Below, piece by piece: positions 5,281 through 28,292 of a DNA stretch of 39,246 nt (positions within the stretch are counted from its first letter, which is position 1; the number at the start of each line of letters is the position of its first letter). A program made the position numbers and the translations under genes. A model generated the notes under the pieces. The model had not been told where the DNA came from, did no database searches, and was given only the letters and a program-made list of their open reading frames with translations. Source of the stretch: a virus. The stretch covers positions 1 to 39,246 of the IMG/VR virus record IMGVR_UViG_3300031784_002645; one strand, written 5' to 3'.

Positions 5281-6097
5281 TGATATTTCAGTAGTTACAG
5301 CATTCTATGATATTGGTAGAGGTAATCTACCAAAAGTAAAACATGGTAGAGAGTTACCATTCTATCAGCATAGAAGTGTAAATCAATATTTTGATTTTTT
5401 CAGTAACCTAGCTAAACTTCAAAACGAAATGGTGATTTACACAACACCCGATTTTGAAGATAAAGTTAAAACTATCAGAAAAAATGTTGGGTTGGAAGAA
5501 CTGACGAAAGTTGTTATTGCAGATTCATACCTACCTGAAAGATATGAACTAATTAAACCTATGGTTCAAAAGGTAATGGATGATCCCGCATATTATGGTA
5601 AAGTGGTGAATCCTCAACTGATTGAATATTGGCATGCCGATTATGTTCTTGTCAATATTTTTAAAGCCTGGTATGTTACTGATGCAATTGAGAAAGGTCT
5701 GATAAGTAATGATCTTACTGCATGGATAGATTTTGGTTATGTTCGTGATGATAAAACAATACCAGCATCAAATCGTTGGACTTATAATTTTGATCGTGAG
5801 AAAATTCATTTCTTCAATCAATATACTATACACAAAGAAAGACCGATTGACAATATAATCTATACAGGTGATGTTTACATTCAAGGATGTCATATTGTAG
5901 CAGGAACAAAGAAATGGGAACTTCTTAAGCAATTGGTTCTCAAAAATCTAGAAGTTCTATTACAAAATAATTTAATTGATGATGATCAAACATTATTGCT
6001 CATGTCGTATCTGACAAGCCCACAAGATTTTCAGTTACATATTGCTGATCCAAACGATTGGTTTAGAATCTTTAGAATATTTAATGATCAAATATGA
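5273..6097 (+). CDS. HtrL/YibB-family protein, putative glycosyltransferase
   Basis: From the ATG at 5273 the protein is 274 aa. It contains WIDFGYVRDD at residues 151-160, the hallmark of the HtrL/YibB family associated with lipopolysaccharide gene clusters in bacteria. The N-terminus (ISVVTAFYDIGRG) also matches that family. An upstream in-frame TTG at 5261 would lengthen the overlap with the previous gene and has no better ribosome site. The biochemical activity of the family is not well established; a GT-A-like sugar transfer is inferred. It overlaps its neighbour at 6094 by four bases. Confidence 0.7.
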   Translation: MDNDISVVTAFYDIGRGNLPKVKHGRELPFYQHRSVNQYFDFFSNLAKLQNEMVIYTTPDFEDKVKTIRKNVGLEELTKVVIADSYLPERYELIKPMVQKVMDDPAYYGKVVNPQLIEYWHADYVLVNIFKAWYVTDAIEKGLISNDLTAWIDFGYVRDDKTIPASNRWTYNFDREKIHFFNQYTIHKERPIDNIIYTGDVYIQGCHIVAGTKKWELLKQLVLKNLEVLLQNNLIDDDQTLLLMSYLTSPQDFQLHIADPNDWFRIFRIFNDQI

Positions 6098-11680: not shown

Positions 11681-12856
11681 ATGCAAAAATTCAAGACTTT
11701 TCTAAAAGAAGAAACTACAGAACCGGAAGGCGAAAAACTCAAGCACATTGAGCATCTAGAGGACCATCCTATCAACGATGGAGCCAAAGGCTTTGAACAT
11801 GCCGTTGGTGCTCTAGATCAAGCCCACAATCATATTATTGCTGGTGCCCACGATTCAACATTGACCATGAAGCATGATGGTTCACCATCTATTGTATATG
11901 GTCATCATCCAGAAACTGGCAAGTTTTTCGTTGCTTCTAAGTCTGCATTTAACAAAAACCCAAAGATTAATTATACGGAAAAAGACATTCAACAGAATCA
12001 TGGTCACGCACCGGGTCTAGTTGAAAAACTCAAGTCTGCATTGCAGCATTTACCGAAGATAACACCAAAACAAGGTGTCTATCAAGGTGATGTTTTATTC
12101 TCAGATAAAGACAAGAAAAAGGAAGGAGACAAATACACCTTCACACCAAATGTCATCAAATACTCTGCGAAAAAAGGCACACCAGAACACGACAAAATAA
12201 AAAAAGCAAAATTTGGTATATACAATCATACTGAATATGTCGGTCCCACAGCAAAGGCTATGACTGCAAACTATAGTCCAGACCTATCTAATTTCACAGA
12301 GCATCCTGATGTTTATCATAGACTTCCTGGTCATGATACGTCAAAAGTTGTAATGACTAAGACTGCTCACGGTGAATATGCAAAGCATGTTGCTGCCGCA
12401 CAAAAAGTACACGACAAAAATCCTCATATGTACCACTCTATTGATCCAGTTAGAGAGCATATGAAAACATATATAAATTCAACGGTTGATACACAAGAGA
12501 AGCCAACAGTTGCAGGTCTACAGAAGCACATAGAAAACAAACTGACAAAAGAAATAGATAAGAAAAAAACTGATGCTGGTAAGAAGAAGTATCAAGATCA
12601 ATTATCCGACTTGATTCAGCATACAAACGTGCATAAGAAAAACCTTGAAGATGTTTTTGCTGTACATCATCACCTACAGAATGCAAAGAATGTTTTAGTT
12701 CATACACTGGCACAACATACTGGTGGATTAGAACATGAAATCAAAGGACAGTCAGTAAAACCAGAAGGCTTCGTCGTAAATCACGAAGGTACAGTTTCTA
12801 AACTAAACGACAGGAACGAATTCAATAGATTGAATCGTCTAGCAAGAGCAAAATGA
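11681..12856 (+). CDS. Ligase-like nucleotidyltransferase (DUF6267-like)
   Basis: This 391-aa protein carries a K-x-D-G motif in TMKHDGSPSIVYG (K64, D66, G67). That is the adenylated-lysine site of the DNA/RNA ligase and capping-enzyme superfamily, and it is followed by FFVASKSAFNK, a downstream FGIYNHTEY strand and a C-terminal PEGFVV resembling ligase motif IV. I recall this layout from the phage family DUF6267, though I am unsure of the number. The ATG at 11681 is chosen over a TTG at 11663 because GAGG is 5 bases upstream. It lies behind a late promoter and overlaps the NadR-like gene. Substrate unknown. Confidence 0.7.
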   Translation: MQKFKTFLKEETTEPEGEKLKHIEHLEDHPINDGAKGFEHAVGALDQAHNHIIAGAHDSTLTMKHDGSPSIVYGHHPETGKFFVASKSAFNKNPKINYTEKDIQQNHGHAPGLVEKLKSALQHLPKITPKQGVYQGDVLFSDKDKKKEGDKYTFTPNVIKYSAKKGTPEHDKIKKAKFGIYNHTEYVGPTAKAMTANYSPDLSNFTEHPDVYHRLPGHDTSKVVMTKTAHGEYAKHVAAAQKVHDKNPHMYHSIDPVREHMKTYINSTVDTQEKPTVAGLQKHIENKLTKEIDKKKTDAGKKKYQDQLSDLIQHTNVHKKNLEDVFAVHHHLQNAKNVLVHTLAQHTGGLEHEIKGQSVKPEGFVVNHEGTVSKLNDRNEFNRLNRLARAK

Positions 12857-14712
12857 AAAGATTCTCACAACTAGTAGAAGAACAACAAAAAAAACTTACG
12901 ATGTTGTTTGGTCGTATGAATCCTCCAACAAAAGGTCATGAGGAGAATGTTGAGGGTCTAAAGAAAACAGCAGAGAAAGAGAATTCAGACCATTTGGTCA
13001 TTGCATCTCACTCACAGGATGCTAAGAAGAATCCTCTATCTCCAGATACCAAACTGAAGCATCTTAAAAGAGCATTCCCTGGTACAAATATTATAACATC
13101 AAGTAAAGAGAAGCCTACAATTATGCATCATGCTGCTGATGCTCATGCTAAAGGTTATACTCATCTTCATGTTATTGCGGGTGCAGATAGAGTGGATGAA
13201 TACAAAAGACTACTTCATCATTATAATGGTAAGACTCATGATGATGCGGGTAGACCATATAAACACGGGTCTTTCAATTTCAAAAAGATAACAGTATCAT
13301 CGTCAGGTGAAAGAACGAAAGGTGTTTCTGGAACTGATATGCGTAATCATGCACAGAACAATGATTACAAATCATTCAAGAGTAATCTTTCTTCACACAT
13401 GCAACAAAATGATAAACATGCTAAAGAACTATTCAATGATGTTCGTAAAGGAATGGGTTTACATGAAGATGTAAATCGTGGTATGTTCAAAGCGATCTTT
13501 ATTACTGGTGGTCCTGGTTCCGGTAAAGACATTATCATTCGTGAAGGTATTGCAGAACAAAGAGCAGTAGAGTTAAGCACAGTTCAAGCCTTTGACTATT
13601 TGATGGATAAAAAGAGACTGTCAGAAAGTAGCAAAGATTTTCGTAGAGAAGCTATTCGCCATCGTAGTCCGCTGGTCATCAACGGATCAGCAGACAATAT
13701 TGATATTGTTTGCACCATCAGAGAAGAATTAGAGGAACTTGGGTATTCTACCATGATGATATATGTTGACACTCTAAATGAAGTTAGCCGTCAACGTAAC
13801 CTCGGATTAAAAAGAATGATATCCGAATCCGTTCGTCAAGAGAAATGGAACAAAGCACAAGTTAATAAAGTAAAGTTTCACGAAATGTTTGATGACTTTA
13901 ATTTGTTTGAAAACAACGACAATTTAGAGATAGTTGAGGAATCAATAAGTGATGTTTATGACCATGTAAATGATTTCCTAGACAGAAACACATTAAATGA
14001 AACATCAACTGATTGGTTGATGCGAAACAAGAAACTAAACATTAACGAAAAAGTTTCATTACTATTTAAGGAGCAAGAAAATGTTAAACTGGATTCTAAA
14101 TCTATTCAAAAGTCCAACCTCAGAAGTAAAGGTATCAAAGGACAATACATTGCAGACAACAACGCCCCAGCCATCCAAATTGCCAGAAAAGCAGGAAGAA
14201 TTGATGATGTCCGAGACGGAGACGTTGCCAGTAACTCCAGCTACATCTTCAGAACCTACGTTGAAGGAAAGCCAACCCTCAAAGTCAACCCGCCGCCCAA
14301 GGAAAGCAACTTCAGCAAAGACAAAGAAAAGCTGAAGAAAAAAGGATTAGTTGATTCACCAACACAGAATCAACGTCTAAGAAATGTAGCGGGGATAGGA
14401 CCGGAGTATGATACAAGACAACAAGGAACAGTTTATCCTATGTCTGGTCTTGGTGATGTAACTTATCGTGAAAATACAGAACTTTCTAAGCATAAATATA
14501 TGAAGGAAGGTACCGCAGCAGGACTTCGCAAAAGTTTCAACAAGTTCAGAACTCAAAAAGAAGCAATAGACGATCCTGGTGCTGTAGATATGGGTGTTGG
14601 TGGTGTGTTAAATGGCGCCACAAATAAAGAACCTTTGCAAACTTACAGAGACCAAGATAAAACTGTAGGTTCGCTAATTAAAAAGAATAAGAAACAAAAA
14701 CAGGAGAAATAA
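12853..14712 (+). CDS. NadR-like bifunctional protein: adenylyltransferase plus P-loop kinase
   Basis: The N-terminal ~190 residues form an NMN/cytidylyltransferase-type domain with GRMNPPTKGH at residues 20-29 (the T/HxGH nucleotide site) and VSGTDMR near 160, equivalent to the ISSTxxR motif. A second domain has the Walker A GGPGSGKD at 219-226 and resembles a nucleoside/nucleotide kinase, as in NadR. The C-terminal ~220 residues are polar, Lys-rich and unassigned, ending in Gly-rich GVGGVLNG and KKNKKQKQEK. A role in NAD metabolism is inferred. Residues ~410-494 overlap a second gene in the +1 frame, and codon use there is unusually GC-rich at third positions. Confidence 0.75.
   Translation: MKRFSQLVEEQQKKLTMLFGRMNPPTKGHEENVEGLKKTAEKENSDHLVIASHSQDAKKNPLSPDTKLKHLKRAFPGTNIITSSKEKPTIMHHAADAHAKGYTHLHVIAGADRVDEYKRLLHHYNGKTHDDAGRPYKHGSFNFKKITVSSSGERTKGVSGTDMRNHAQNNDYKSFKSNLSSHMQQNDKHAKELFNDVRKGMGLHEDVNRGMFKAIFITGGPGSGKDIIIREGIAEQRAVELSTVQAFDYLMDKKRLSESSKDFRREAIRHRSPLVINGSADNIDIVCTIREELEELGYSTMMIYVDTLNEVSRQRNLGLKRMISESVRQEKWNKAQVNKVKFHEMFDDFNLFENNDNLEIVEESISDVYDHVNDFLDRNTLNETSTDWLMRNKKLNINEKVSLLFKEQENVKLDSKSIQKSNLRSKGIKGQYIADNNAPAIQIARKAGRIDDVRDGDVASNSSYIFRTYVEGKPTLKVNPPPKESNFSKDKEKLKKKGLVDSPTQNQRLRNVAGIGPEYDTRQQGTVYPMSGLGDVTYRENTELSKHKYMKEGTAAGLRKSFNKFRTQKEAIDDPGAVDMGVGGVLNGATNKEPLQTYRDQDKTVGSLIKKNKKQKQEK
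14081..14335 (+). CDS. Overprinted gene nested in the NadR-like gene, 84 aa
   Basis: This 84-aa ORF lies wholly inside the NadR-like gene in the +1 frame. It starts with an ATG preceded by AAGGAG at 7-base spacing, one of the best ribosome sites in the window. The protein has a short hydrophobic/amphipathic N-terminus (MLNWILNLFK), a Pro/Thr/Ser/Glu-rich middle and a basic tail (STRRPRKATSAKTKKS). Over about 14150-14335 the host frame uses roughly 56% G/C third positions by my count, against about 17% just downstream. That is what a second coding constraint would produce. Function unknown; a DNA-, membrane- or virion-associated peptide is possible. Confidence 0.65.
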   Translation: MLNWILNLFKSPTSEVKVSKDNTLQTTTPQPSKLPEKQEELMMSETETLPVTPATSSEPTLKESQPSKSTRRPRKATSAKTKKS

Positions 14713-14713
14713 C

Positions 14714-16135
14714 ATGTTTGCCAAAGATAGAGTGTCCCAATCACTAATTGATGCAGTTAATAAAGTTCTGACTACAGAATCTAAACAGCCAGAACAACTC
14801 AATGAAGCATTCCCTACTGTAGCGGATGCTCAAAAGAGAGCAAGTGAGCCTAAGCCTAGTGGTGGTGCGGGAATTAAATTGGGAACACGTTATGGTGGTG
14901 GTCGTCAAGCTGATGAGCCAGAAAAAGACGATGAGCCTAAACAAAGAGCAAAATATGGTGCTCGTAAAGATAGATTTACAAACACAAAACTATACAAAGA
15001 AGCTGATGATTGTGTAGATGAGCCAAAAGCAAAAGAGATTGCTAAAAAAGAAGTCGGTAATCATGAGAAGTCAATGCACAAAGAAGAATTAAAAGGTAAT
15101 CAGCACAAGATTGATGCTAACAAGAATGGCAAAATTGATTCGCATGATTTTAAACTTCTGCGTTCAAAGAAAAAGAAAATGACAGAAGGATTGTCTTTTG
15201 CTGAACAACTAATTGAATCAATGTATGGTAAAAAGTCTGCACTTCCCATTGATGAAAAAGAAATGAGTGATACTCAAAAGAAAAAGAAAGAAGATATCGT
15301 TATGTCAATGAAGAAAGACACAGCGGGTCTTAAAAAGCGTTATGGGTCACGTTGGAAAGACGTAATGTACGCTACTGCTACAAAACAAGCCATGAAAGAA
15401 GAAGTTGACGAATTTGAAGAAGAAATTGATCCAGATGTAAGAACAAAAGATGCTATCTCTGGTGCAAACAAGCCAACAAAACAAAAAGATGATGTTGGTC
15501 CTGGTGCAGATAGCAGAAGCACTAAAGTAAAATTCAAAGCTGGTCCTATGAGTGAAGGACATGAGGACGAAAAAGAAGATGAAGGACACGAGGACGAAAA
15601 AGAAGATAAAGCTTTAGTAAAGAAGATGGTCAAGAAAGATGCTTTGAAAGAAGATGAGCAACTTGATGAGTTGTCAAAAGACACATTATCATCTTATTTG
15701 CAAAAGCGTGGTTCTATGGTTTCTTCACGTTCAAAAAATAATAAAGGTAATGAAAATATGGTGAGAGCAGTAAATAAAATGGCCAATAAGAAAACAAACG
15801 AAGAAGTTGAACAACTTGATGAATTAAGCCATGATACTTTGCGTAGCTATGTGGACAAAGCTAAAAAAGAAAATCTTCCTGGAAAAGGTGGCAATAGAGG
15901 CGTTGCTCTATTGACTCCTGGCACCAGAGATAAAGGTGTTCATAGAGCAGTTGATAGAATGAAAAAGATGAAAGCCAATGAAGAAGTTGAAATTCATGAA
16001 AATGAAAGAGAAGATGCAGATGACATGCATTTTGCCAAAAAGAATAAACCAAAATCATTAAAGTCATTCATGTCCATGAAGAAAGAGATGATAGGTAAAG
16101 CTGGTATGACTTCAGAGAAAAAAGATGAAGAATAA
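14714..16135 (+). CDS. Lys/Glu-rich late protein with EF-hand-like loop and DEL repeats
   Basis: This 473-aa, highly charged protein contains one canonical-looking EF-hand loop (DANKNGKIDSHD at about residue 134, with D/N/N/I/D at positions 1, 3, 5, 8 and 12). It also has a GHEDEKEDE tandem repeat near 281-298 and two related segments, EQLDELSKDTLSSYLQK and EQLDELSHDTLRSYVDK, near residues 314 and 364. Such repeats occur in several proteins of aquatic T4-like phages. A virion-internal or scaffold-like role is inferred from late position and composition. The start has CAGGAG 8 bases upstream, and the end overlaps the next gene by 11 bases. Confidence 0.72.
   Translation: MFAKDRVSQSLIDAVNKVLTTESKQPEQLNEAFPTVADAQKRASEPKPSGGAGIKLGTRYGGGRQADEPEKDDEPKQRAKYGARKDRFTNTKLYKEADDCVDEPKAKEIAKKEVGNHEKSMHKEELKGNQHKIDANKNGKIDSHDFKLLRSKKKKMTEGLSFAEQLIESMYGKKSALPIDEKEMSDTQKKKKEDIVMSMKKDTAGLKKRYGSRWKDVMYATATKQAMKEEVDEFEEEIDPDVRTKDAISGANKPTKQKDDVGPGADSRSTKVKFKAGPMSEGHEDEKEDEGHEDEKEDKALVKKMVKKDALKEDEQLDELSKDTLSSYLQKRGSMVSSRSKNNKGNENMVRAVNKMANKKTNEEVEQLDELSHDTLRSYVDKAKKENLPGKGGNRGVALLTPGTRDKGVHRAVDRMKKMKANEEVEIHENEREDADDMHFAKKNKPKSLKSFMSMKKEMIGKAGMTSEKKDEE
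15554..15607 (+). repeat. Two-copy 27-bp in-frame tandem repeat
   Basis: Two adjacent 27-base units differ at one base (T/C at position 8 of the unit). Each encodes EGHEDEKED within the Lys/Glu-rich late protein. The near identity points to recent slippage or unequal recombination. Confidence 0.85.
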
Positions 16136-17276
16136 AAAGACTTTTAAAGAAGCATTTGGTAGAAACCCATGGGATCCATGGTCAGCGAAAGCTGGCCTGG
16201 ATGAAACTTCTGAAGCTCAACTTCAAAAGTATCTCATGTCTAGAGGAATCAATCCTCAGTACGTCACCAAAGATGTTAAAATAGCTCACTCAAAATCTAA
16301 TCAGTTTAAACAGTGGGCAGCTACTCATAGAGAAGAAGTGCAAAACGAAGATCATGTCGCAATCGCTATGGGCAAACAACTTGATGATGAAGGTAGCATG
16401 ATTCTAAATCAACTTGATATCCTAGACGATGCAATTGCAAAACTGAGAGAAGTTGTCAAAGATCCTAACATGCAAATTCCTGCTTGGGTTCAATCGAAAA
16501 TAACTTTAGCAGCAGATTATATGGATACTGTTGGACATTATATGTCTAGCAAGAACGAAGATGGTATGAATGAAGAAGTCGAACAAATTGATGAACTCAA
16601 AACTTCTACACTTCTAAGATACGCTACAAAAGCAAACAAAGCTTTGATCGGTGGAGACAGAAATAAAGAACAAAAAAGAATTCAAGGAATTCAAAAGGCA
16701 AATTACAAAATACAAAGTAGATATAAAGTAAAAGAAGAAGTTGAACTAGAAGAAGGAAGTGTTCAAGATGCTTTACATCAACGCCAACAAGCATTACGCA
16801 AGAAAAGCGGATTACCTCATCCAGATTATTACAAAGAATTAGGCAAGTCATATGATATTGAAGATGACAAAGAAAGACTATCAAAACAGTCTGAGATTAA
16901 AAAGAAATACAATGTTGAATCCGTATTGTATGATAATCCAAAAGGAACTTTAACTAGAGTAACTGAACGTAAGAAAGAATTAACTCGTTCTGCAAGAATC
17001 ATCAAATCTTTGTATAAGAAAAAAGGTATAAAAGAAGATACCTATGATTGGGAAAAAGATGACAAAGATACGTCATCTTATGGTAAACAACCTAAGTTTA
17101 CGAAGTCTGATGATAAAGCAAGTAAAGTTAAAAAAGAGTCTGATGCTGCTGCGATATTGTCTGGAGGCACAACACTAACGAAACAAAATCGTGATATAGT
17201 TGAGCTAGATCCTAAAATGAAAATGCGTCCCAATAAAGATGCACAAGATGCTAATGACAACGACAAGAATCAATAA
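16125..17276 (+). CDS. Charged late protein with EEVEQIDEL repeat, paralogous in part to its upstream neighbour
   Basis: This 383-aa protein begins KKTFKEAFGRNPWDPW. Residues ~148-171 (EEVEQIDELKTSTLLRYATK) repeat the element seen twice in the upstream protein, and a shorter EEVELEEG copy follows near residue 204. The middle (DHVAIAMGKQLDDEGSMILN) is a helical segment found in other phage proteins of this sort. The C-terminus is disordered and rich in Lys/Asp. No enzyme motif is visible. A virion-internal role is possible. Its stop lies in an AATAAATA late-type octamer. Confidence 0.72.
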   Translation: MKNKKTFKEAFGRNPWDPWSAKAGLDETSEAQLQKYLMSRGINPQYVTKDVKIAHSKSNQFKQWAATHREEVQNEDHVAIAMGKQLDDEGSMILNQLDILDDAIAKLREVVKDPNMQIPAWVQSKITLAADYMDTVGHYMSSKNEDGMNEEVEQIDELKTSTLLRYATKANKALIGGDRNKEQKRIQGIQKANYKIQSRYKVKEEVELEEGSVQDALHQRQQALRKKSGLPHPDYYKELGKSYDIEDDKERLSKQSEIKKKYNVESVLYDNPKGTLTRVTERKKELTRSARIIKSLYKKKGIKEDTYDWEKDDKDTSSYGKQPKFTKSDDKASKVKKESDAAAILSGGTTLTKQNRDIVELDPKMKMRPNKDAQDANDNDKNQ

Positions 17277-19673: not shown

Positions 19674-20132
19674 ATGTGGATTTTAAAATGGTTACCCGAT
19701 TGGATTTTTTATGCGGTCTTAGTTATTGGAATCGTAGGATTGATTTCAACATATTTGGTTAAGTTTTTAGCTAAGTTCTTCCCTCCCCTCTACGTGTACA
19801 AGACACCTATACAGTTAGTGTCTATTGCATGTATAGTTTTGGGTGTGTTCATGTCTGGTGCAATATACAACAATGATCAATGGGAAGCAAAAGTCAAAGA
19901 GCTACAAGAAAAAGTAAAGATTGCAGAAGAACAATCAAAGCAAGTTAATACTGAGATTGTTGAAAAAGTAGTTACAAAGAACAAGATTATAAAAGAAAAA
20001 GGTGAAGAAGTTGTAAAATATATTGACAAAGAAGTTGTTAAGTATGACACAAAGTTCTTGCCTAGTGGTGAATGTGAAATACCAAAAGAATTCTTAGGGG
20101 CAATAAATAAAGCAGCGGAGACTCCAAAATGA
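19674..20132 (+). CDS. Inner-membrane spanin subunit (Rz-like)
   Basis: This 152-aa protein has two hydrophobic segments at ~10-33 and ~45-64. A long charged coiled coil follows at ~68-120, then a tail LPSGECEIPKEFLGAINKAA that matches phage Rz-type proteins. The coiled coil would cross the periplasm and bind the outer-membrane lipoprotein encoded next, fusing the membranes at lysis. Two membrane segments rather than the single one of lambda Rz is the common form in T4-like phages. It overlaps the partner gene by four bases and lies just before the endolysin. Confidence 0.75.
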   Translation: MWILKWLPDWIFYAVLVIGIVGLISTYLVKFLAKFFPPLYVYKTPIQLVSIACIVLGVFMSGAIYNNDQWEAKVKELQEKVKIAEEQSKQVNTEIVEKVVTKNKIIKEKGEEVVKYIDKEVVKYDTKFLPSGECEIPKEFLGAINKAAETPK

Positions 20133-20386
20133 AATATATTCTAATTGCTTTGATGCTTGTGGGATGTTCAACGCCAGTACCTGTAGCGCCAAAGTTTCCT
20201 GAAGCACCAAAGATTTTATTAGAAAAATGTAAGGAGTTACAAATGACTCCTGAAGATGCTACTCTAAGTGAGATAGCAAAAAAGATAGGTATTAATTACG
20301 GTAATTATCATGAATGTTCTGCGAAAAATGATGCATGGGGTGAATGGTATCATAAGCAAAAAAACATTTATGAAAGTGTAAAATAA
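20129..20386 (+). CDS. Outer-membrane lipoprotein spanin subunit (Rz1-like)
   Basis: This 85-aa protein has a lipoprotein signal peptide ending LMLVGC, so Cys 13 would be lipidated. A proline-rich stretch (STPVPVAPKFPEAPK) typical of o-spanins follows. The C-terminal part, EIAKKIGINYGNYHEC and WGEWYHKQK, is a pattern shared with other phage proteins next to Rz-like genes. It is coupled to the Rz-like gene and abuts the endolysin start. Confidence 0.75.
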   Translation: MKYILIALMLVGCSTPVPVAPKFPEAPKILLEKCKELQMTPEDATLSEIAKKIGINYGNYHECSAKNDAWGEWYHKQKNIYESVK

Positions 20387-21000
20387 TGGAACTAAAAAAA
20401 GAACAACTAAGACAATTACTACCAAAAAATCCATATATTGATCAGTGGCACAAGGCTCTAAGCCAATTACTTCCAGATTATGAAATCAATACACCACAAC
20501 GTATTGCTGCTTTCGTGGCTCAGTGTGCCCACGAATCTGGTAATTTCATTTTCTTAACTGAAAATTTAAATTACAAAGCTGAAAGTCTTTTAAAGGTATT
20601 TCCAAAATATTTCAAAGACATGGCTACAGCAAAAGCATACGAAAAGAAACCAGAAAAAATTGCAAATCGTATCTATGCTGATCGTATGGGTAACGGTAAC
20701 GAAGCATCTGGTGATGGCTACAAATATCGTGGTCGTGGACTAATTCAGTTGACCGGAAAAACAAACTATACTTGGTTTGCTGCATCACTAGAAATCTCAC
20801 CAGAAGAAGCAGCAGAGTATACTCAAACATTTGAAGGTGCTGCACAGTCTGCGTGTTGGTTCTGGGAAACAAACAAAATCAATCAATGGGCAGATAAAAA
20901 TGATATCGTTACCATGACCAAGAGAATTAATGGTGGGACAATAGGACTTGATGATAGAATAAAACACTATGAACACGCATTGCATGTCTTAGGAGTATAA
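20386..21000 (+). CDS. Endolysin, GH19 (chitinase/lysozyme-fold)
   Basis: This 204-aa protein contains the GH19 signature. E50 in CAHESGNF is the acid and E59 in LTEN the likely base. It also has GDGYKYRGRGLIQLTG at ~109-124 and NGGTIGLDDR near the C-terminus. It should cleave the glycan strands of peptidoglycan at lysis. The length is typical of phage GH19 endolysins without a cell-wall-binding domain. There is no signal peptide, so a holin must release it. The genes on either side encode spanins and membrane proteins. Confidence 0.93.
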   Translation: MELKKEQLRQLLPKNPYIDQWHKALSQLLPDYEINTPQRIAAFVAQCAHESGNFIFLTENLNYKAESLLKVFPKYFKDMATAKAYEKKPEKIANRIYADRMGNGNEASGDGYKYRGRGLIQLTGKTNYTWFAASLEISPEEAAEYTQTFEGAAQSACWFWETNKINQWADKNDIVTMTKRINGGTIGLDDRIKHYEHALHVLGV

Positions 21001-22605: not shown

Positions 22606-23643
22606 ATGAGCATACACATTGATCGTAAATTTCTACATCTAGTTTCACCGAAGCTAGAACGGTTCGCACAAAAGAAACCGGACCTGTATAACTTTAGGTG
22701 TCCCATTTGTGGGGATTCTCAAAAGAATAAATCCAAAGCCAGAGGTTTTGTTTACAAGAAAAAGAATGATTACTTTTTCATGTGCCATAACTGTGGCGCT
22801 GGACATACGTTTTATAACTTTCTAAAACTTGTTGATCCATCTTTGCTAAAAGAATATGCATATGAAAGATTTACCAATGGTGAGACCGGGAATCATAATT
22901 ATCCGAAGCCTACGTTTGAGGAATTCAAGAGTCAACCTGCGTTCAATGAAAAACCAACGCAAAAGAAGATCGAGTTGGATACAATTGAGTCCTTACCAGA
23001 ATCGCATTATGCGAAAGCATATGTTAAAGCCAGGAAGATTCCTGAAAAATATTTCTCAGAGTTATACTTTGCACCTGACTTCAAGATGTTGGTACAATCT
23101 CTCGGTGTTGAAAATGAAAATCTCAAAGAGAAAGACCCTAGGCTTATCATACCATTCTACAACGAAAATAATGAACTCTTTGCCATACAGGGTAGGGCGT
23201 TATCGGAATCAAAGATCCGTTACATCACAATCACCTTGGTGGAGAATGAACGAGTTCAAGGATATATGAAGTTTTATGGTTTAAATAAATTAGATAGAAA
23301 TAAAAAAGTTTATGTTGTTGAAGGTCCTATTGATTCAATGTTTTTACCAAATGCAATTGCAACTGCTGATGCAGACCTGACAAGAGCGGCGAAGTTAGAA
23401 CTAACTGATTTTGTTTTAGTGTATGATAATGAACCAAGAAATAAAGATATTGTAAAGCAAATCGGCAAAGCAATTGCTTCTGGTTATAATGTAACATTAC
23501 TGCCGGAAAACATCAAACAAAAAGACATAAATGATATGATTTTAGCAGGAATTTCGCCTGGTGAAATCGTGGATCTTATAGATAAATTTACTTTCAGTAA
23601 TTTGAGAGCTAATCTTGAGTTTTCCTCTTGGAAAAAAGTTTAA
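22606..23643 (+). CDS. 61: DNA primase, T4 gp61-type
   Basis: This 345-aa protein has an N-terminal zinc-binding domain (C32, C35 in CPICGDS and C60, C63 in CHNCGAG). A TOPRIM catalytic domain follows with the metal-binding Glu in VYVVEGPIDSMF (about residue 240) and LVYDNEP near 270. It makes RNA primers for lagging-strand synthesis with the gp41 helicase. The length fits T4 gp61 (342 aa). The ATG lies directly at the predicted transcript start of its own promoter, with no ribosome site. Confidence 0.92.
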   Translation: MSIHIDRKFLHLVSPKLERFAQKKPDLYNFRCPICGDSQKNKSKARGFVYKKKNDYFFMCHNCGAGHTFYNFLKLVDPSLLKEYAYERFTNGETGNHNYPKPTFEEFKSQPAFNEKPTQKKIELDTIESLPESHYAKAYVKARKIPEKYFSELYFAPDFKMLVQSLGVENENLKEKDPRLIIPFYNENNELFAIQGRALSESKIRYITITLVENERVQGYMKFYGLNKLDRNKKVYVVEGPIDSMFLPNAIATADADLTRAAKLELTDFVLVYDNEPRNKDIVKQIGKAIASGYNVTLLPENIKQKDINDMILAGISPGEIVDLIDKFTFSNLRANLEFSSWKKV

Positions 23644-27068: not shown

Positions 27069-27313
27069 AAAGAATTCTACGATTCACTGCATCGTGGTGT
27101 CAGCCGTGTAAAATGTTAGCTGCTAATCTAGGAGAAACTGATTGTAAGATACCCACCGAAGTTGTTGATATCGACATACATCCAGAAATCGCAGCAGAAT
27201 ATGGTATTAGAAGTGTTCCCACTCTTGTTATGTTACATGAAAATATAGAAGAAAAAAGATTAATAGGAAATAAATCACCAAAAGAATTAAAGGAGTGGAT
27301 CTATAATGATTAA
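27065..27313 (+). CDS. nrdC: Thioredoxin (NrdC-like)
   Basis: This 82-aa mini-thioredoxin has the WCQPCK active site (C12, C15) and the cis-proline loop RSVPTLVML. Its place between NrdA and NrdB, coupled to both neighbours, indicates that it regenerates the RNR disulfide. The CQPC dipeptide differs from the bacterial CGPC, which can shift redox potential. It is shorter than bacterial thioredoxin (about 108 aa) but normal for phages. Confidence 0.9.
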   Translation: MKRILRFTASWCQPCKMLAANLGETDCKIPTEVVDIDIHPEIAAEYGIRSVPTLVMLHENIEEKRLIGNKSPKELKEWIYND

Positions 27314-28292
27314 GAAGCAGCAATCAGATTTAACAGAAGAAAGAAACTATTTTAAACCATTTAATTATCCTTGGGCGTATGATGCTTGGTTGAAACATGA
27401 ACAATCACACTGGTTACATACCGAAGTTCCGATGCTTGAGGATGTTAAGGATTGGAAAAAGAAGCTTACTGATTCTGAGAAAAAGTTTCTCACTCATATA
27501 TTCAGATTTTTTACTCAGGGTGACATTGATGTTGCAGGTGGCTATGTTAATAATTATTTACCTCATTTCCCTCAGCCTGAAATAAGAATGATGTTAGCTG
27601 GTTTTGCTGCAAGAGAAGCATTACACATTGCAGCATACTCTCATCTTATCGAAACACTAGGGTTACCGGAGACAACATACAATGAATTCTTGGAATATGC
27701 AGAGATGCGTGAAAAGCATGATTATATTCTTGATCTTAGCTCACAGAATGGTGATAGGACTTCTACTGCTACTCATATTGCAGTATTCTCTGCTTTCACC
27801 GAAGGGATGCAACTATTCAGTTCCTTTATCATGTTACTTAACTTCCCTCGCACCGGTAAAATGAAAGGTATGGGTCAGATTGTAACATGGTCGATTGTAG
27901 ATGAGACACAACATTGCGAGTCTATGATTAAGTTGTTTAGAACTTATGTTGAAGAAAATAAAGAAATTTGGAATGATGATCTAAAATCAAAGATTTATAC
28001 GATTGCAGAAAGAATGGTTGAACTTGAAGATAAGTTTATTGATTTAGCTTTTAGTGTAAATGAAATGGAAGGACTGACTGCTGAAGATGTGAAAAAATAT
28101 ATTCGTTACATTGCAGATAGAAGATTGATTAGTCTAGGACTAAAAGGAATCTTTAAAGTAAAAAGAAATCCTCTACCTTGGGTAGAAGAAATGATTAATG
28201 CACCAACACACACCAACTTCTTTGAGAATAGAGCAACTGATTATGCAAAAGGAGCACTCTCTGGGGATTGGGCTGATGTTTGGGCACACTAA
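27306..28292 (+). CDS. nrdB: Ribonucleotide reductase small subunit, class I (NrdB)
   Basis: This 328-aa beta subunit generates the radical for NrdA. All metal ligands can be placed by spacing: D73, E104 and H107 (REALHIAAY), E166 (FTEGMQ), E200 and H203 (DETQH), plus the radical Tyr Y111. With Tyr and all ligands present it should be a conventional metal/tyrosyl-radical enzyme, not a metal-free class Ie form. The C-terminus ends SGDWADVWAH, the tail that docks in NrdA. It overlaps the thioredoxin gene by 8 bases. Confidence 0.95.
   Translation: MIKKQQSDLTEERNYFKPFNYPWAYDAWLKHEQSHWLHTEVPMLEDVKDWKKKLTDSEKKFLTHIFRFFTQGDIDVAGGYVNNYLPHFPQPEIRMMLAGFAAREALHIAAYSHLIETLGLPETTYNEFLEYAEMREKHDYILDLSSQNGDRTSTATHIAVFSAFTEGMQLFSSFIMLLNFPRTGKMKGMGQIVTWSIVDETQHCESMIKLFRTYVEENKEIWNDDLKSKIYTIAERMVELEDKFIDLAFSVNEMEGLTAEDVKKYIRYIADRRLISLGLKGIFKVKRNPLPWVEEMINAPTHTNFFENRATDYAKGALSGDWADVWAH

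Follow-up and report, generated by a model that had tools for sequence, protein, structure and literature searches.

Background

The product of Rz1, a gene lying in another reading frame of Rz, is rich in proline. Rz1 is described as a complete gene, embedded in Rz of phage lambda (the spanin genes) and provided with its own start (PMC8785237, PMC5295617); it encodes an outer-membrane lipoprotein, which pairs with Rz in lysis (PMC6139136). The embedded sgl genes of leviviruses, as presented in PMC7693330, are small, overlap an essential phage gene in a second frame and are usually unannotated; they belong to tiny RNA phages, evolve fast and show little similarity. For overprinted genes of small eukaryotic viruses, a disorder-biased product, an overlap located in a disordered part and a reduced synonymous change are reported (PMC8227390). 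Embedded genes are considered rare in Caudoviricetes, where annotators are advised to use extreme caution in recording them (PMC8785237).

The sequence analysed here, indicated as the window, is a stretch of 39,246 nucleotides, corresponding to the IMG/VR virus record IMGVR_UViG_3300031784_002645. Positions 14081-14335 (+ strand) contain an ORF of 84 aa, which begins with ATG, ends with TGA and is read in frame +1 with respect to a larger gene (12853-14712, + strand). Judging from sequence comparison, this ORF very probably represents a genuine gene for a protein, entirely contained in that portion of a nucleotidyltransferase/kinase gene which encodes a disordered tail. Like Rz1, it is a small, Pro-rich gene, with its own start, embedded in another frame of a larger phage gene; unlike Rz1, it encodes a protein with no lipobox-like motif, and the enclosing gene codes for a nucleotide enzyme rather than a spanin. 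With the sgl genes it shares the birth of a small gene in the second frame of a larger phage gene, but it is kept at one place across divergent dsDNA phages, whose records measure 104-180 kb, and a separate endolysin gene is present in the window. The disorder-biased product, the overlap in a disordered part and the reduced synonymous change are features in common with the overprinted genes of eukaryotic viruses, from which it differs in having a prokaryotic Shine-Dalgarno start, inside a phage of large genome. Nested genes are a known kind; the 14081-14335 family is in no library searched, and none of the literature titles and abstracts surveyed, whose coverage is thin for subscription papers and preprints, describes it.

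Position, start signal and composition of the nested gene

A preliminary description, made from the sequence alone, had reported an 84-codon ORF in the +1 frame, preceded at 7 bases by AAGGAG. Both are found: the ORF runs from ATG to TGA at 14081-14335, and the Shine-Dalgarno-like site is at 14068-14073 (+ strand), inside the enclosing coding sequence and 7 nt 5' of the nested ATG. When both strands of the window are searched for AAGGAG-N4-9-ATG, 8 occurrences are found, all on the + strand, versus 3.08 expected; none of 100 shuffled sequences reaches 8. On the mRNA common to both genes, ribosomes would be recruited by the internal AAGGAG and initiate at the nested ATG, independently of the translation of the enzyme.

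The same description had noted a third-position G+C of about 56% in the enclosing frame, dropping to about 17% just downstream. When recomputed, the values are 57.1% for 14150-14335 (+ strand, 63 codons) and 17.7% for 14336-14520 (62 codons); in the 40 non-redundant members described below, the mean is 0.47 in the overlap and 0.26 elsewhere. The rise over 14150-14335 is due to the fact that the same DNA spells a second protein, rich in Pro, Thr and Ser.

Conservation among homologues

IMG/VR was scanned for relatives of the enclosing protein, and the best 80 of 167 were used for alignment. Once identical sequences were collapsed, 69 distinct ones were left of 81 (window included), and 68 after dropping L017, truncated before the overlap. 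Eleven of the 68, including the window, are 86-100% identical, while the other 57 are only 47-58% identical (best segment). The non-redundant set contains 40 members, at less than 92% identity. One contig, L014, was included in the column and open-frame counts, and excluded from the dNN/dNS, synonymous-change and nested-frame stop analyses, and from the 39-sequence alignment.

The preliminary description had proposed to look, in aligned homologues, for an open +1 frame, a kept AAGGAG-ATG and a reduced synonymous variation, frequent stops in the +1 frame being regarded as contrary evidence; the alignment bears it out on each of these points. With codons aligned, 67 of the 68 distinct homologues have the nested ATG in one column, and 64 have the nested stop in one column. 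AAGGAA or AAGGAG is located exactly 7 nt before the ATG in 64 homologues; of the remaining four, two carry GAGG, at a spacing of 6 nt, one lacks any such site and one lacks the ATG. The 67 nested proteins, of which 55 are distinct, can be aligned over their whole length. In 37 non-redundant members the codon that carries the site encodes Lys, and it is AAG every time, versus 23.5% AAG elsewhere in the gene; the sequences being related, these figures are given as counts, not as a probability. The comparison shows frame, start codon, stop and Shine-Dalgarno-like site to be kept by selection across a divergent phage group.

Synonymous change in the enclosing frame was evaluated in 417 pairs, drawn from 67 sequences: relative to expectation, it falls to 0.54 in the overlap, and to 0.23 at the site and start. 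Within the overlap it is lowest in the N-terminal part (0.34), followed by the C-terminal part (0.41) and the middle (0.70); directly after the overlap it is 0.91. Changes silent in the enzyme and nonsynonymous in the nested frame occur at 0.525 of the rate found elsewhere in the gene (95% interval 0.44-0.64). The nested-frame dNN/dNS, a ratio of the dN/dS type, is about the same as the value obtained by reading the remainder of the gene in that frame: 0.757 versus 0.736 in 125 close pairs and 0.797 versus 0.794 in 301 pairs, becoming slightly higher (0.905 versus 0.846) when 2165 pairs are considered. The evidence for a gene consists, therefore, of the absence of stops, the conserved start and stop, the ribosome site and the suppression of enzyme-silent change, rather than of a classical dN/dS signal. 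Nor is a low synonymous change, by itself, a proof of a gene, since the lowest 30-codon window of the whole enclosing gene (0.326, at 14467-14556) lies outside the nested ORF.

The latter belongs to a second stretch of low synonymous change, at 14437-14562 (codons for QQGTVYPMSGLGDVTYRE and beyond), with no evident nested ORF, where an internal start, a promoter or a recent gene conversion are possible causes. Its presence indicates that constraint at the nucleotide level does occur in the enclosing gene. The overlap itself might likewise be conserved as a promoter, an RNA structure or another cis element, with no protein made, and a dNN/dNS which does not show protein-level selection would fit such a reading. 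A cis element, however, needs neither an ATG, nor a ribosome site at fixed spacing, nor a stop-free run of 79-100 codons, variable in length and closed by a stop at the same place; in addition, the start region shows no excess structure, being less stably folded than the shuffle mean in all five members folded. Conservation of this kind is, altogether, a very improbable explanation.

A product might also arise by +1 frameshifting, or by polymerase slippage, from the enzyme frame: this would generate an enzyme with an alternative C-terminus, and no free small protein. Just 5' of the ATG, a run of 6 A is present in 29 of 67 members, with a purine-rich site upstream, and both resemble known slippage sites. 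The A-run, however, ranges from 0 to 6 A (none in 6 of the 67), whereas the ATG is found in 67 of 68 homologues, and in L059 a stop directly abuts the ATG (TAAATG), blocking any read-through from upstream. On these grounds frameshifting is extremely unlikely; the maintenance of the 7-nt spacing between site and ATG also speaks against it.

The openness of the frame was evaluated against a null model, in which each enclosing protein is kept fixed and synonymous codons are redrawn from the rest of the same gene. The +1 frame is open through the overlap in 39 of the 40 non-redundant members, versus 2.84 expected; in the 39 members left after excluding L014, no nested-frame stop is present, versus 93.8 expected. 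Three control stretches of the enclosing gene, read in the same way, contain 106, 316 and 221 stops. Pairwise identity in the nested frame is 0.480, versus 0.293 expected; the control stretches exceed the null less (0.391 versus 0.327, 0.440 versus 0.367 and 0.416 versus 0.335), and their excess is the share due to common ancestry. ORF length, in contrast, is within chance: among 300 versions of the enclosing gene with randomised synonymous codons, a fraction of 0.197 contain a +1 ORF of this length or longer. What exceeds chance is the conservation across homologues, rather than the length.

The primase gene of the same window (22606-23643) provides a control, which covered 24 of the 80 fetched loci plus the window. 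It contains a +1 ORF of 137 aa, at 22856-23269, whose length is matched by none of 300 randomised versions. This ORF is open in the window and in four close relatives, and is interrupted in all of the 20 more distant homologues looked at: it is probably not a gene. Since the longer primase ORF fails and 14081-14335 passes, it is conservation, not length, that separates real from spurious nested ORFs, and the method does so within one genome. That the +1 frame at 14081-14335 is merely left open by the composition of the enclosing gene, no protein being made, is exceedingly improbable: the length is unremarkable, and the primase ORF indicates that these genomes can give rise to ORFs of this type and retain them for a short time, but the frame stays free of stops far beyond expectation, and start, stop and ribosome site are kept in homologues only 47-58% identical. 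The comparative evidence for a nested gene is very strong, and comes from records of 104-180 kb, where space does not force overlap.

Two other +1 ORFs are found in the window. One, of 89 aa, is located at 911-1180, in a DnaB-like helicase gene, and its length is equalled or exceeded in 0.007 of 300 randomised versions; the other, of 62 aa, lies within the gene for the ribonucleotide reductase small subunit (27306-28292), the corresponding figure being 0.003 of 300.

The enclosing gene

The enclosing gene (12853-14712) encodes a protein of 619 aa, composed of a nucleotidyltransferase-like domain, a P-loop kinase-like domain and a disordered tail. In the AlphaFold2 prediction, residues from about 10 to 398 are folded, while pLDDT is under 50 over 399-619. 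The overlap corresponds to residues 410-495; it falls, therefore, in the predicted disordered tail and not inside the catalytic domains. The nested ORF had been initially described as overprinting inside a conserved enzyme: the overlapping gene is supported, while its location has to be moved to the predicted tail, outside the catalytic domains.

The protein matches the cytidyltransferase-like family phrog_3041 (E 1.3e-52), while all its Pfam matches are below cut-off. Foldseek matches of the folded part, with E under 0.001, include NMN adenylyltransferases (8aih, 6kh2) and folds of the adenylate-kinase type. Since nucleotidyltransferases and P-loop kinases are both matched, the term "NadR-like", used in the preliminary description, is fair only as far as architecture is concerned, a nucleotidyltransferase-like domain being followed by a P-loop kinase-like one.

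In Pelagibacter phage HTVC008M (L094, 3462-5911), the nucleotidyltransferase and the kinase-like part are encoded by distinct genes, whose order is reversed. This indicates that either the enclosing gene results from a fusion, or its parts were split.

The two genes downstream, at 14714-17276, contain repeats of a motif similar to EEVEQLDELSKxTLxSYxxKA, also present in proteins of L156 and L157. Likely lysis genes are located at 19674-21000, with a weak match to Rz-like spanins (E 0.0007) and a strong one to endolysins (E 1.7e-75).

The nested protein

An amphipathic N-terminus, a middle rich in Pro, Thr and Ser and a basic tail had been anticipated for the product, and the analysis recovers the three parts as an N-terminal helix, a P/T/S-rich linker and a Lys-rich tail. 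The 55 distinct members are 79-100 aa long, with a net charge between +4 and +18 and a predicted pI of 9.5-11.5; the median content of P, T, S, Q, E and K is 69%. For the first 11 residues, encoded at 14081-14113 (+ strand), the hydrophobic moment has a median of 0.64 in the 55 distinct members, versus 0.32 for shuffles of the same residues. Structure prediction yields a single short helix, at residues 2-9, and little else (mean pLDDT 64.7). The basic tail consists of the last 13 residues, RPRKATSAKTKKS, encoded at 14294-14332 (+ strand): a TS(P/A)(K/R)TK motif is present in 51 of the 55 distinct members, and the net charge of the last 20 residues is between +6 and +10.

Searches for known relatives of the nested protein gave no convincing result. 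When 39 members were singly scanned against the libraries, the best E values were 0.029 for PHROG and 0.012 for Pfam, each in single members; comparison to PDB sequences gave no match at E 10. A lipobox, defined as [LVI][ASTVI][GAS]C in the first 40 residues, is found in none of the 55 distinct members, and the window protein has no Cys. By tblastn, none of 50,697 annotated phage records yielded a credible relative, the window protein producing one match at E 0.2 and that of L061 none. The family being absent from the libraries searched and from the annotated phage records, the nested gene is missed by current catalogues of phage proteins.

As a guess from composition, the product could tentatively be seen as a small, soluble, mostly disordered accessory peptide, with the helix lying on a membrane or on a partner protein, and the Lys-rich tail binding nucleic acid or an anionic surface. 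It is rather unlikely, if conceivable, that it serves the enzyme encoded by the same mRNA as a dedicated partner or regulator; in that case the shared message would fix their ratio, which would be the reason why the two still overlap in genomes with room to hold them apart, and helix and basic tail would tether the enzyme, or phage nucleic acid, to the membrane.

Distribution and age of the nested gene

A profile of the nested protein matches 172 of 195 sources scanned, many loci repeating one contig, and all 172 matches are in the +1 frame of the enclosing gene; no standalone copy, that is no match outside this frame, is found in the loci scanned. For 171 the match reaches the N-terminus: all of them start with ATG, and 167 feature AAGGA upstream. 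Each of eight long phage records (104,626-179,754 bases) contains one copy. The 23 sources which do not match comprise loci cut off before or within the overlap (L017, L149, L155), loci with matches to other portions of the enclosing gene but no significant one to this region, and L014 (= L150), a contig which covers the region and yet lacks the nested ORF; in L014, the initial half of the region is absent. In a phylogenetic tree L014 branches close to the base (support 87); the outgroup is not close enough for rooting, so that L014 may either have lost the ORF or never have had it.

In HTVC008M, Methylophilales phage Melnitz-3 and phage C48C1 the nucleotidyltransferase is present, with no nested ORF of the 14081-14335 family. 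The small proteins annotated beside it in these three phages were considered as possible relatives and discarded: they do not look similar by eye, and the profile finds none. In L157, a phage without the nested gene, a 118-aa protein with a hydrophobic N-terminus and a basic tail is encoded near the nucleotidyltransferase gene, at 5644-6000. No relatives of it are found among the loci compared; that it is an analogue of the nested protein is possible only.

Bacterial and archaeal genome contigs contain 13 relatives of the enclosing protein, none with a match to the nested profile. Eleven of the 13 match the first domain only, while L170 and L171 show further weak matches, that of L171 being not significant. 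Codon usage gives no order of age for the two frames, the r values being 0.41 and 0.41 for the window, 0.408 and 0.372 for pooled sequences. The nested gene is probably younger than the enclosing one, because it is not found without it, while the first domain of the enzyme is widespread without the nested gene.
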